From: a virus | DNA length: 26,166 nucleotides | IMG/VR virus record: IMGVR_UViG_3300047562_001616 | Coordinates: 1-26,166 of that record | Direction: 5' to 3' (one strand) | Shown here: positions 20,168 to 24,519 of the stretch, piece after piece | Layout of the letters: every line of letters begins with the position of its first letter | How positions within the stretch are numbered: position 1 is the stretch's first letter | The notes under the pieces: generated by a model | What the model was told of the DNA's origin: nothing | The model's input: only the letters and a program-made list of their open reading frames with translations | The model's database searches: none | Translations under genes and position numbers: made by a program

Positions 20168-20734
20168 ATGCCAAATAAAGCATCACCAATTCCACCCTGG
20201 GCGTCAGTAAAGATTGAGCCAAAAAGAGCGTTTAAATTCGTATTAACCCTTGGAGATATTCCAGCCTGGGTTGTTACTGACGTGTCACGCCCAAGTCCAA
20301 AATTTCAAGGTGGCGCAACCCACGACTTTTTAGGGCATCAATTTAAGTTCCCAGGTAAAGTACAGTGGAATGATGTTTCAGCAACACTTGTTGAACCAAT
20401 CGATCCTGACGTTTCAGGTCTTTTGCTGGATTCAATTAAAAAGGCTGGATATAATCCACCATCATCTTGGACTGTTGACAACGAAGGGTGGAGAACCACA
20501 CTTTCAAAAGAAAAGTTTGTCAATGGAAACTTGGGTAACATTGCTATTAGCGTTTTAGATTCAAATGGTAATGTTGTAGAAAAGTGGACCCTTTTCAATC
20601 CCTTTATTAGTTCAGTAACTTATTCTAAATTAGCTTACAACCAAAGCGGAATTAATACAATTGGTGTAGGTTTTACTTATGATTATGCAGATGTCGAGAT
20701 ATTTGAAATTGATCAAAATACAACTGTAGCATAA
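20168..20734 (+). CDS. gp19: Tail tube protein (gp19-like), copy 1
   Basis: 188 residues (T4 gp19 is 163). Typical tube pattern: FKFVLTLGDIPAWVVTDVSRPSPKF, then FKFPGKVQWNDVSATLVEPID, a variable middle, then GNIAISVLDSNGNVVEKWTLFNPFISSVTYSKLAYNQSG and a final strand pair. It forms stacked hexamers inside the sheath. It follows the sheath gene, as in T4 (18-19), and is preceded by GGAGA. Homologous throughout to the product of the next gene. Confidence 0.93.
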   Translation: MPNKASPIPPWASVKIEPKRAFKFVLTLGDIPAWVVTDVSRPSPKFQGGATHDFLGHQFKFPGKVQWNDVSATLVEPIDPDVSGLLLDSIKKAGYNPPSSWTVDNEGWRTTLSKEKFVNGNLGNIAISVLDSNGNVVEKWTLFNPFISSVTYSKLAYNQSGINTIGVGFTYDYADVEIFEIDQNTTVA

Positions 20735-20742
20735 TTACTTAG

Positions 20743-21300
20743 ATGGCAGAATTAATTGAACAATCTATCTATGAAAAGAAGCTCCAGAGTGGATTTCGGT
20801 TTCTACTCAGAGTACAAGATATACCATTTGCTTTAATTACTGATGTGTCTAGACCAAATCCACAGTTTGGTGCGGCTAGAGAATATCAATTGCTTAATTG
20901 GAAATTTAAATATCCAGCGGCTGTCGTTTCCTGGATGCCTATCTCTTTTACCATTAGAGAAACTTTTGACAACACCTTAACTGATTCAATCTCTGGATTA
21001 GTGTTGGACAAATATAAAAAATTAAGTTATGATAATCCAAATCAAGTTAGAGTTTCTAACGTAAAAAATATTAGCAAATCATCCTTAATGCAAGCGTTAG
21101 GAGATGTTATGATACAACTAATTGATCCGGATGGAAATGTTTATGAGCAATGGACACTATACGGGGCATTTATTTCAGGAATAAGTTTTAGTAAGCTTAG
21201 TTATACTGCATCTGGATTGATTGGAACAACTGTTACGCTTGCCTACGATTGGGCATCTCTAACTTATGTTAGTGATACAAATGTGCAAAAAACTTATTAA
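20743..21300 (+). CDS. Tail tube paralogue, copy 2
   Basis: 185 residues, clearly homologous to the preceding tube protein: FRFLLRVQDIPFALITDVSRPNPQF against its FKFVLTLGDIPAWVVTDVSRPSPKF, and IQLIDPDGNVYEQWTLYGAFISGISFSKLSYTASG against the same C-terminal block. The middle is diverged, so it is an old duplication. T4 uses tube-fold paralogues (gp54, gp48) to start the tube at the baseplate, so this copy may be a specialised tube ring or initiator instead of a second bulk subunit. No Shine-Dalgarno is evident before ATG 20743, suggesting lower or coupled translation. Confidence 0.88.
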   Translation: MAELIEQSIYEKKLQSGFRFLLRVQDIPFALITDVSRPNPQFGAAREYQLLNWKFKYPAAVVSWMPISFTIRETFDNTLTDSISGLVLDKYKKLSYDNPNQVRVSNVKNISKSSLMQALGDVMIQLIDPDGNVYEQWTLYGAFISGISFSKLSYTASGLIGTTVTLAYDWASLTYVSDTNVQKTY

Positions 21301-21313
21301 TTAAGAGGTTATA

Positions 21314-22102
21314 ATGAAACAATTTAATATGGAAGATGAAACATCTTCTGCAAAACATAATGGAATGACACATTATGTTGACTTACCAACAGGTGGATTT
21401 TATTATCCAGAGGGTCATCCTCTGTGTGGAGTGGCACAGGTTGAAGTTAAAATGATGACAACCAAAGAGGAAGACATATTAACAAATCAATCTTATATTG
21501 ATAATGGTATAGTGATTGATAAATTATTGGAAAGCATTATTCTTACCAAAGCCAGTCCAAAAGACATATACGAATCGGACAAAATGGCTGTGCTATTGGC
21601 ATCAAGAGTTGAGGCATACGGGTCAGATTACGAAGTTGTATCTATTTGTCCTCACTGCGGTGAAACACAAGAAGACACGATTGATTTAAACAATATTATA
21701 AGCAATGTTGTTGAAAGTGAATATGAGAAAACTGAGGCTGGTACAACAATTTTGGAATTGCCAAAATCAAAAAAAGTTATTGAGTTTAGAAATCTTTTAC
21801 CAAAAGATTTAGAATCAATTGAAAAAACTGTTGAAAGAATGAAAAAATTAAATATCAACACAAGTTTTAATATTGAATTTTTTAAAAGAATTATTATAAC
21901 AATGGACGGTGAAGACAACAAAGATGAAATTGGAAAGTTTGTTCAAAATATTCCAATTATGGATTCAAGAGCTTTAAACAAAGCATACTCTAAGTCAATA
22001 CCTAGAATTGACACAACAACAAAAACAGTTTGTAACTCTTGCAATAAAGAGAGTGAAGGGGGTCTGCCAATTCAGGCGAACTTTTTTTTCCCTGAACTCT
22101 AA
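21314..22102 (+). CDS. gp26: Baseplate hub / tail assembly chaperone (gp26-like) with zinc cysteines
   Basis: 262 residues. The opening YVDLPTGGFYYPEGHPL, then VEVKMMTTKEEDILTN, IDKLLESII and DKMAVLLASRVEAYGSDYEVVSICPHCGE follow the T4 gp26 baseplate family pattern. Four cysteines in two C-x2-C pairs (C112/C115 and C240/C243) could bind zinc. The position after tube and before a tape-measure candidate is where tail assembly chaperones are found. The 3' end has an unusual run of eight T (22082-22089) just before the stop, in an overlap with an open frame that contains the next small ORF; see findings on frameshifting. AGAGG precedes ATG 21314. Confidence 0.82.
   Translation: MKQFNMEDETSSAKHNGMTHYVDLPTGGFYYPEGHPLCGVAQVEVKMMTTKEEDILTNQSYIDNGIVIDKLLESIILTKASPKDIYESDKMAVLLASRVEAYGSDYEVVSICPHCGETQEDTIDLNNIISNVVESEYEKTEAGTTILELPKSKKVIEFRNLLPKDLESIEKTVERMKKLNINTSFNIEFFKRIIITMDGEDNKDEIGKFVQNIPIMDSRALNKAYSKSIPRIDTTTKTVCNSCNKESEGGLPIQANFFFPEL
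22082..22089 (+). other. Eight-T run, possible frameshift site
   Basis: The codons AAC TTT TTT TTC near the end of the gp26-like gene give a T8 run four codons before the stop. A -2 or +1 shift here enters the frame of the downstream small ORF, which is open from at least 22008 to 22253. A -1 shift does not. Slippage is inferred, not shown. Confidence 0.35.
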
Positions 22103-22112
22103 TTATTTGGAG

Positions 22113-22253
22113 ATGACTTATTCCAACATCATATCTTTAATTTCATCTGGTGGCTGGTCCTATAAAGACCTTCATTCGCTCCCTATATCTAAAAGAGATT
22201 GGATATTTCGTAAGTTTGCTGAATTAAATAATCCCAAAGAGGAGGACGAATAA
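22113..22253 (+). CDS. Small tail-chaperone-like ORF (gp51/G-T-extension position)
   Basis: 46 residues from ATG 22113, or two more from TTG 22107; the frame itself is open upstream into the gp26-like gene. The sequence (MTYSNIISLISSGGWSYKDL, then HSLPISKRDWIFRKFAELNN) has the short W-[ST]-Y-x-x-[LV]...LP...R-x-W pattern of the small C-terminal parts of tail assembly chaperones. GGAG abuts the ATG with no spacer, which is a poor initiation signal, so expression by frameshift fusion or by re-initiation after the gp26 stop (10 nt upstream) is likely. Its stop overlaps the next start as TAATG. Confidence 0.72.
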   Translation: MTYSNIISLISSGGWSYKDLHSLPISKRDWIFRKFAELNNPKEEDE

Positions 22254-23641
22254 TGCCAGCACAGGCAGGAAATAAAGAAAATACAGGTTTGGAGAAAATT
22301 CAAGACTTTAATACGGCGTTGGCGAAAGCCCTTCCTGATACATTTAAATTTAGGACTGAAGTACAATTAATAACAAAAAGCTTTGAGTTTTTAAATAACC
22401 GGCTTGGCGAAGGTTTTGAGGAATTAAATAAACTGCAAACAATGCAAGCGGCACTTAACAAAACTTTGGGAAAAGATGGTTTTGACGCAGTAAATAATAT
22501 TAGCGACGCATTTGTAAAATTGAATCAGGCCATGCGTGGTATTGAGGAGGCAAATATTCAAGGTGCTTTTGAAGGCATTAGAAAATCATTTGCGTTGACG
22601 AATAAAGAAATTGTTGAGCAAGCTGGTAGCACAGCCAAGCTTAAAAAAGCAATGGATGAAGCTTCCAAATCCATAGCAAAAAACTCAAATGTGATTGATC
22701 AATCAAAATTGGTTGATTTTACAAATAAGTTTACTTTTCAAACAAATAGTGCTGTTGATACGTCTGAAAAATTTGGTGAAAGATTGGTTGGTCTTGCTTA
22801 CAGACTTGGACTTCCAAATGAGCAGTTATTAACTTTAGGTCAAAATATGTTGTCCACCGGCAACTATTTTGGTGAGATAAATGGTAAAATTGAAGAAGCA
22901 ACTTTAAAGGCAACTGCATTTGGCCGAGCTTTGGGAACAACTGGCGATGTTGTTAATAAACAATTGGCGAGTATGCAAACAATCTCTGGCAGACAGCAGT
23001 TGGCGGCACGCTTATCTCAGATTGGCTCAATGGTTGGAGTTGATATTGATATATCAAAGTTGATGAGCGCTGACCCTGACGAACAAAGGCAGGGGTTGCG
23101 TGATGCTTTGAGAAAGTTTAGTTCATCTTCTAAAAATTTAACAGCAGCACAACAAAGAGCATTATCATTAAGTCTTAGCACGGCATTACCTTCTTTTGGG
23201 CGCGAAGCAATACAAACAGCGCTTGTAAGAGGTGTGGATATTGAAGACGCACAGAAAAAGATTGATGCAGCTAAAGATGATGTAAAAAAGGGCGCAATAA
23301 CTGAAGAAATGCGGCGACGCGCCACGACTTTTGAAAAAATGCGCGCACAATTTATTGCCGCCGAACGCAGACCGGTTGCTAATAAACAGCTTGAGGCGAT
23401 AGGCAAAGATTTTAATAGTGCTTCAGATAAATTTACAAACGCAGTAATAGGTTTCTCTAAAACAGCTGACAATCTCGCCGCGGCCATCGGCGCCAAGGAG
23501 GGAATAAAAGAAATTACAGAAATCCTCGCACCATTGGTGAAACTCGCTAAAGAAAATATTACCAACGAGGCGGTAGTGAAAGCGCTCTCGCTCGCCGGGT
23601 TGAGCCTTGGTTACCAAGCGGTCAAACCCCAAACAAAATAA
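22253..23641 (+). CDS. Tape-measure / hub protein candidate
   Basis: 462 residues with a strong GAGGAGG ribosome-binding site. The chain is almost wholly helical, with many Ala/Lys/Gln/Leu and repeated coiled-coil stretches (FEFLNNRLGEGFEELNKLQTMQ, AFVKLNQAMRGIEEANIQGAFEGIRK, TAKLKKAMDEASKSIAKN), and mildly hydrophobic Ala/Gly-rich helices near the end (SLAGLSLGYQAV). That composition and the place directly after the tail chaperone genes fit a tape-measure protein (T4 gp29 is 590 residues). No T4 gp29 sequence motif is obvious, so the call rests on composition and synteny. The last about 50 codons are notably more GC-rich than the rest. Confidence 0.62.
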   Translation: MPAQAGNKENTGLEKIQDFNTALAKALPDTFKFRTEVQLITKSFEFLNNRLGEGFEELNKLQTMQAALNKTLGKDGFDAVNNISDAFVKLNQAMRGIEEANIQGAFEGIRKSFALTNKEIVEQAGSTAKLKKAMDEASKSIAKNSNVIDQSKLVDFTNKFTFQTNSAVDTSEKFGERLVGLAYRLGLPNEQLLTLGQNMLSTGNYFGEINGKIEEATLKATAFGRALGTTGDVVNKQLASMQTISGRQQLAARLSQIGSMVGVDIDISKLMSADPDEQRQGLRDALRKFSSSSKNLTAAQQRALSLSLSTALPSFGREAIQTALVRGVDIEDAQKKIDAAKDDVKKGAITEEMRRRATTFEKMRAQFIAAERRPVANKQLEAIGKDFNSASDKFTNAVIGFSKTADNLAAAIGAKEGIKEITEILAPLVKLAKENITNEAVVKALSLAGLSLGYQAVKPQTK

Positions 23642-23670: not shown

Positions 23671-24519
23671 ATGGCATTATCAGTAAAAAATCCCTTTACA
23701 CTTGGGAACACAGTAGAAGGTTTGTTGGGCGGTGGAACTGCCCTAGCCGATGCATTATTGTCAGGTCCCGGCAACGATCCAACACTTAACACTGCATTAC
23801 CAGCAGAAGCTTCTTTAAGAAATAGATTAAATTTTGCCAATATAAAAATAGGTTTTCCAACAAGTGGTGGTCCGCTTCCACTTGCCAATGTAATAACGGC
23901 AACTGCTTTAACCTTTCCAGCTTATTTAACAAACTTTATTCAGACTTTTAGTACAGGTTTTTCGTCTATACCAGTTTATGGTAGAAATGATGCAATTCCC
24001 ACCTATAAGGGGACAACAAGGTCAATTATAGTTGGATTAAAAATACCTTGTTTTGATGAACAAGATGCAAATGAAAATATGAAAAAATTAAATATTTTTA
24101 TTAAAAATATCTATCCTCATTATAATGAGTTTAAAGGTGATTTGATTATGGGATCACCACCATTGGCAAGGGTTAAATTTGCAAACTTGATTGTAGATCC
24201 GAGAATTTCCTTTAGAGGGTTATTGGGATACATTCAAAATTTTTCGTTTAGCTTTAATGCTCAAGATGGGTTTTTTATGGATAAGGACGAAGGATCGGGC
24301 GGTAATTTGTTTTTCAGAGAATTAAGCATTTCTTTTACACTCAATGTTTTACACGAAAAAGTAATCGGAACAATTGATGGTGAAGCAAATAATCCATCAG
24401 ATTTTCCCTTTAGAGTAAAACACGATATTTTTAACCCAGTACAACAAAGAAGCGCAACTGATTTAAAAAAACAGTTTGGATTATCTGGGGATTTAAGCGA
24501 AGCTAAAATTTTAAGATAG
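23671..24519 (+). CDS. Baseplate tail-tube cap-like protein
   Basis: 282 residues. Residues 1-70 are Gly/Leu-rich and flexible. The body has a pattern seen in tube-cap/inner baseplate proteins of aquatic T4-type phages: IPVYGRNDAIPTYKGTTRSI, then LNIFIKNIYPHYNEF, SPPLARVKFANLIVD, LLGYIQNFSFSFNAQDGFF and ISFTLNVLHEKVIG. In T4 the equivalent step is done by gp48/gp54, which also have the tube fold; direct similarity is not visible, so the T4 name is not assigned. No Shine-Dalgarno precedes ATG 23671; the motif CTATTTAT is immediately upstream. Confidence 0.65.
   Translation: MALSVKNPFTLGNTVEGLLGGGTALADALLSGPGNDPTLNTALPAEASLRNRLNFANIKIGFPTSGGPLPLANVITATALTFPAYLTNFIQTFSTGFSSIPVYGRNDAIPTYKGTTRSIIVGLKIPCFDEQDANENMKKLNIFIKNIYPHYNEFKGDLIMGSPPLARVKFANLIVDPRISFRGLLGYIQNFSFSFNAQDGFFMDKDEGSGGNLFFRELSISFTLNVLHEKVIGTIDGEANNPSDFPFRVKHDIFNPVQQRSATDLKKQFGLSGDLSEAKILR

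Follow-up and report, generated by a model that had tools for sequence, protein, structure and literature searches.

A candidate programmed +1 frameshift in a viral tail-assembly chaperone gene related to T4 gp26 and gp51

The chaperone locus and its junction

The window analysed here is the whole 26,166-nucleotide stretch of IMG/VR virus record IMGVR_UViG_3300047562_001616. The locus of interest consists of a short chaperone gene (A), a small open frame that begins before A has ended (B), and a longer open reading frame in the tape-measure position. The relevant features are as follows, with the basis for each in brackets.

21314..22102, + strand: gene A, the short chaperone (TAC-N) of the T4 gp26/gp51 family, 262 aa (PF12322, phrog_150, AlphaFold2 model)
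22062..22077, + strand: weak, terminator-like stem TGCC..GGCG immediately 5' of the T8 run (fold of the sequence)
22079..22093, + strand: putative slip region AAC TTT TTT TTC CCT (near-absolute nucleotide conservation, codon freeze, +1 re-pairing possible)
22089..22253, + strand: B, the +1-frame extension or predicted TAC-C domain (SLNSNYLEMTYSNIIS...), ending at the stop TAA (open in 85 loci, protein-level constraint, three-helix model, linked by profiles to the C-terminus of T4 gp51)
22100..22102, + strand: zero-frame stop codon of TAC-N (TAA read in the sequence)
22109..22115, + strand: GGAG abutting an ATG, a poor separate start for B (sequence; ATG absent in L006-L010; helix 1 begins earlier)
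22253..23641, + strand: 462-aa open reading frame in the tape-measure position, with the good Shine-Dalgarno (SD) sequence GAGGAGG (position; just weak PHROG matches)

Gene A matched PF12322 over residues 42-258 (E 5.8e-13; 49.5 bits vs a curated cut-off of 24.5) and phrog_150 (E 3.2e-14), as the original prediction of a gp26-like chaperone had it. T4 gp26 matched the same family with an E value of 8.8e-64, as did residues 1-201 of T4 gp51 (E 3.9e-52), which carries an additional C-terminal part. In the AlphaFold2 model of gene A (pLDDT 90.7), the nearest solved structure was the HK97 tail assembly chaperone 2ob9, at residues 13-102 (Foldseek probability 0.80, E 0.2; VIA Z 5.7 over 78 residues, rmsd 3.2), a similarity too weak to prove a common fold. 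The next rows, 3klu (YqbN, VIA Z 5.2) and 5ir0 (Z 4.0), fell at residues 141-231, and all Z scores were below 8. The model thus hints at two chaperone-like domains. A sequence search of solved structures returned nothing significant. Gene A also contains two Cys-x-x-Cys pairs (residues 112-115 and 240-243) that are invariant in the window clade and could form one zinc site.

Tube genes lie upstream of the locus, the 462-aa open reading frame downstream is only weakly tape-measure-like, and an annotated tape measure lies downstream of the A/B locus in three relatives (L019, L022, L024). The two adjacent tail-tube-like genes (20168-20734 and 20743-21300) both matched phrog_4542 and represent a tube duplication. 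No clear SD sequence precedes the next gene, at 23671.

Gene A ends with the codons AAC (22079), TTT (22082), TTT (22085), TTC (22088), CCT, GAA, CTC and TAA (22100). The eight-T run at 22082-22089 is exactly as originally described, and no other run of eight T occurs on the + strand of the window. The frame lying +1 (which is the same as -2) relative to gene A is open from stop to stop between 21978 and 22253. The end of this opening was correctly predicted, although its supposed start at 22008 is merely the first TTG within it. In the -1 frame, a TGA at 22093-22095 leaves no canonical -1 arrangement (X XXY YYZ). Judged within the window alone, 151 nt of open alternative frame past a stop was unremarkable, since overlapping neighbour genes produce many similar cases; it was the comparison with relatives that raised the junction above chance.

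Conservation of the junction and of the extension

The +1 frame relation was kept in all 14 IMG/VR relatives, in which gene A identity ranged from 74 to 37%. Within the clade carrying the T8 run, the junction AACTTTTTTTTYCCTGAAYTCTAATTA was essentially invariant, and the exact T8 junction 27-mer was present in 20 viral contigs. Homopolymer runs are prone to sequencing and assembly error, and a true run of T7 would make A and B one ordinary gene. However, the in-frame T7 version of the 27-mer was found in none of the viral contigs searched, which, together with the 20 exact copies, rules out such an error; moreover, three relatives (L001-L003) carry T9CC in place of T8CCC with the total length unchanged, and complete phage genomes have the same frame relation. 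On these comparisons sequencing error is refuted at the family level, and for the locus as a whole it is scarcely credible.

A wider survey added 80 further viral loci and cultured phages, scored alike, to give 100 distinct loci. One of the two search peptides spanned the slip residues, so that amino-acid frequencies there are biased while codon choice is not. B lay in the +1 frame relative to A in 85 loci and in the -1 frame in 15; in those 85 it was found at the same junction site and open through the stop codon of A. On this comparison, a long form, in which a late change of frame adds a conserved C-terminal domain to the short form, is predicted in the 85 +1 loci and in about 12 of the -1 loci. 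Automated scoring put L058, L111 and L023 among the -1 loci, and the first two were excluded from the fusion set and the tree. In both of these, B seems to lie just past the stop codon of A in a broken or shifted frame despite an intact slip site, perhaps through an indel or an assembly error. The A of L023 (LR756511, a huge phage) runs beyond its usual end in an Arg-rich tail and is followed by B in the -1 frame, with no clear slip site at the A/B junction.

The commonest +1 site was TTT TTT TGG CCT (63 loci); others were TTT CTT TGG, TTT CTA TTC, TTC TTT TGG, TTC TTT CGT and CTG TTT CGC, besides the window type, TTT-TTT-TTC. Every +1 site contains an in-frame UUU whose next base is U or C, and in Listeria phage LIS04 (TTT TTT AGT) the first UUU alone qualifies. 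Synonymous change in the window clade was 0.085 in the last 10 codons of A vs 0.386 in the whole gene. In a set of 81 +1 loci, TTT was the first slip codon in 80 and the second in 77, and CCT encoded the Pro in 79; for comparison, gene-body usage was 578:161 for TTT:TTC and 262 of 775 for CCT. By these measures, conservation of the junction greatly exceeds what coding alone would require. The alignment of homologues proposed as a check on the original prediction therefore came out in its favour, as the site and the relative frame are conserved with no usable separate start in 85 of 100 loci, and the frameshift junction, as judged by this comparison, is real and strongly conserved.

Differences among the B frames of the +1 loci were distributed over codon positions 1, 2 and 3 as 2060, 1323 and 3447, as in a coding frame, which shows, at the level of sequence, that B is under protein-level constraint. 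A and B were modelled as two separate chains, and B was predicted to form three helices (pLDDT 87.9), the first of which begins upstream of the Met codon at 22113.

That ATG begins 11 nt past the UAA of gene A, an arrangement shared by two relatives (L001 and L004), and one could suppose that B is a separate small protein made from its own start or by reinitiation after the stop codon. In Pseudomonas phage Cygsa01 (L031), stop and start even overlap as TAATG. However, the GGAG at 22109-22112 touches the window's ATG with zero spacer, as originally noted, and SD sequences at normal spacing precede many other genes of the window. The ATG is missing in L006-L010. When the 85 +1 loci were scanned for ATG, GTG and TTG from the slip site to 36 nt beyond the stop codon of A, no start codon was found ahead of the core of B in 56, and a start with an SD sequence was found in only 2, so that relatives with a good separate ribosome-binding site, which would have spoken against a fusion, are rare. 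The frame is conserved through the stop codon and upstream of it, and initiation at the ATG would truncate helix 1 of the model. A separately started B is therefore unlikely, and for the family as a whole we consider it very improbable. In Cygsa01, the TAATG overlap replaces the heptamer at the A/B junction, and coupled reinitiation may occur there.

Proposed mechanism and direction of the slip

A and B very likely constitute a single tail-assembly chaperone gene in which a programmed +1 ribosomal frameshift would yield TAC-N (262 aa) and TAC-NC (312 aa). We propose that: most ribosomes read gene A to the UAA, giving TAC-N; a minority, with peptidyl-tRNA-Phe on a UUU of AAC-UUU-UUU-UUC, slip one base forward; the P-site tRNA-Phe re-pairs from UUU to UUU and translation enters B; and the slipped product, TAC-NC, contains ...QANFFSLNSNYLEM... 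at the junction. On the analogy of lambda G/GT, TAC-N and TAC-NC would both coat the tape measure while the tail is assembled, and the TAC-C part encoded by B would recruit the tube protein. The binding of tape measure and tube protein by the predicted TAC-N and TAC-NC is suggested by this analogy. What the analysis shows is the sequence, its conservation, the homology and the model folds; we infer that the slip occurs, at some ratio, in the +1 rather than the -2 direction, and that it serves assembly.

The original prediction allowed either a -2 or a +1 slip. The frame relation it implied was borne out in 85 of the 100 loci, and the choice between the two directions comes from the relatives. 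A -2 ribosomal slip, as used by phage Mu (PMC5009743), would give a product of 313 aa with one extra Phe, and the T run of the window permits -2 re-pairing at 22085 and 22088. In four relatives with the same frame relation (L020, L026, L038 and L043), however, the stretch from the last B-frame stop to the end of A offers no cognate -2 re-pairing, whereas cognate +1 re-pairing is possible in all 85 loci, and in the window at 22082 and 22085. The +1 direction is therefore favoured over -2, which is ruled out in those four relatives; as the window itself permits both, +1 is assigned to its T8 run by parsimony. For the locus under study, we regard a Mu-like -2 slip as quite improbable.

The same fusion could also arise in the mRNA. 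If RNA polymerase slipped on the T8 run, aided by the weak stem, some transcripts would carry U7 and encode a product identical to that of the +1 shift; the small stem 5' of the T run was found in the T8 clade too. Yet the frame relation is kept where there is no long run, as in TTT CTT TGG (L019, L038, L043), TTT CTA (L020) and CTG TTT CGC (L026), and in 63 loci the run is no longer than T7, with GG after it. Transcriptional slippage cannot account for these short-run variants, going by their sequences, and as a general explanation it is improbable, leaving the +1 ribosomal frameshift as the preferred reading.

Candidate stimulators of the +1 shift were examined and rejected. A downstream RNA structure was no better than shuffled sequences (z 0.70), and almost no covariation was seen in the alignment fold. 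An SD-like, G-rich stretch was found, for the most part 24-35 nt upstream, but at that distance it could not act as a prfB-type aid, and such stretches may reflect just Glu-Gly-Gly codons. The prfB arrangement itself, which combines an A-site stop codon with an SD sequence about 3 nt upstream, does not apply, the A-site codon being TTC or TTT; the UUC of the T8 clade is not obviously slow. Programmed +1 frameshifts without an A-site stop codon are uncommon.

Relation to known chaperones and switches of direction

T4 gp26 and gp51 share the PF12322 family with gene A. The C-terminal part of gp51 was connected to B through intermediates: a profile of the +1-group fusions matched an intermediate fusion profile (E 1e-40) in an alignment that crosses the junction, and the latter matched T4 gp51 along its length (E 2.8e-13). 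With B alone, the profile matched the cyanophage and rhizophage B (E 4e-7), which in turn matched the gp51 C-terminus (E 1.3e-10), while a reversed B profile, used as a control, gave no match. The link depends on these intermediates, since the match was weak (probability 9-22%) when the window fusion was compared directly with just T4 gp51. This chain of profiles makes B a homologue of the T4 gp51 C-terminus, in agreement with the earlier description of the small frame as a chaperone-like tail. In T4 the two forms come from separate genes on opposite strands, whereas here one gene with a slip site is predicted.

The 2022 study of Vladimirov et al. reportedly names gp26 and gp51 as the T4 chaperones, which agrees with the placement of both in PF12322, and its abstract is said to describe frameshifting as conserved in several T4-like groups.

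Lambda gpG/gpGT likewise consists of a short form and a frameshift-extended long form directly before the tape-measure position (PMC5009743), although lambda slips -1 and the slip here is predicted to be +1; no common sequence family was found between gpG/gpGT and A/B. Frameshifting of the lambda type has been called widely conserved, T4 excepted, and +1 and -2 shifts are both known among tail chaperones (PMC5009743). Phage Mu (-2) and haloarchaeal HSTV-2 (probably +1) have the same relative frame; they belong to other phage groups and are likened by frame alone, and the Mu-type shift is the one precluded in the four relatives above. No general motif for forward shifts is known (PMC10885494). 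Sullivan et al. (2010) described cyanophage gp51 as short and matching the C-terminus of T4 gp51 only (PMC3037559). Papers that cite Vladimirov, Gautam and Davidson (2022) credit that study with identifying the chaperone genes of T4-like phages, with short and long forms from separate genes in some (PMC10885494), and with poly-T -1 signals in T4-like TAC-N genes (PMC12846349). The original statement that frameshifting is not established for T4-type gp26/gp51 is, going by these citations, out of date, as separate genes or frameshifting had been proposed. A frameshifted or paired T4-like chaperone was thus already on record; the broad +1 version and the switches of direction were not found described in the literature searched, which includes that study as others cite it.

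Cyanophage, Rhizobium and Aeromonas phages of the T4 superfamily (L029, L030, L032, L033), with gp26 and a short 'gp51', have the same two domains and the same junction as the window, but B is in the -1 frame behind a heptamer T TTT TTC/G, where the window has +1. PA5oct, Atu_ph07 and the cyano-, rhizo- and phiAS5 phages likewise have the -1 site T TTT TTC or TTG. On a tree of A (97 rows, slip columns removed), made by a quick method and with some long branches, at least three changes between +1 and -1 are needed. L037, L040, L046 and L056 form a supported -1 group nested among +1 phages, with the site A AAT TTC, and L077 is a lone -1 case with the site A AAT TTT TTC. As placed on this tree, the group of four and L077 are independent switches of direction.

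These results suggest that: in the gp26/gp51 family, the long chaperone is probably made for the most part when tRNA-Phe slips +1 on UUU-Y, usually in the form UUU-UUU-UGG, both in a very large set of viruses from marine and fresh waters and in cultured phages of Microcystis, Flavobacterium, Bacillus, Listeria and Streptomyces; at the same position, the direction has probably changed at least three times between +1 and -1; and in T4 the slip has probably been replaced by two genes. The family would thus offer dozens of naturally occurring variants of a single simple site, together with independent -1 switches at the same place, making the determinants of direction and ratio directly testable. 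Current annotation misses the long chaperone in many phage genomes, labelling it a hypothetical protein or a short gp51. In the records of L018, L019, L022, L024, L025, L026 and L027, A is entered as a baseplate hub, a baseplate protein or a hypothetical protein, and B as hypothetical or omitted.
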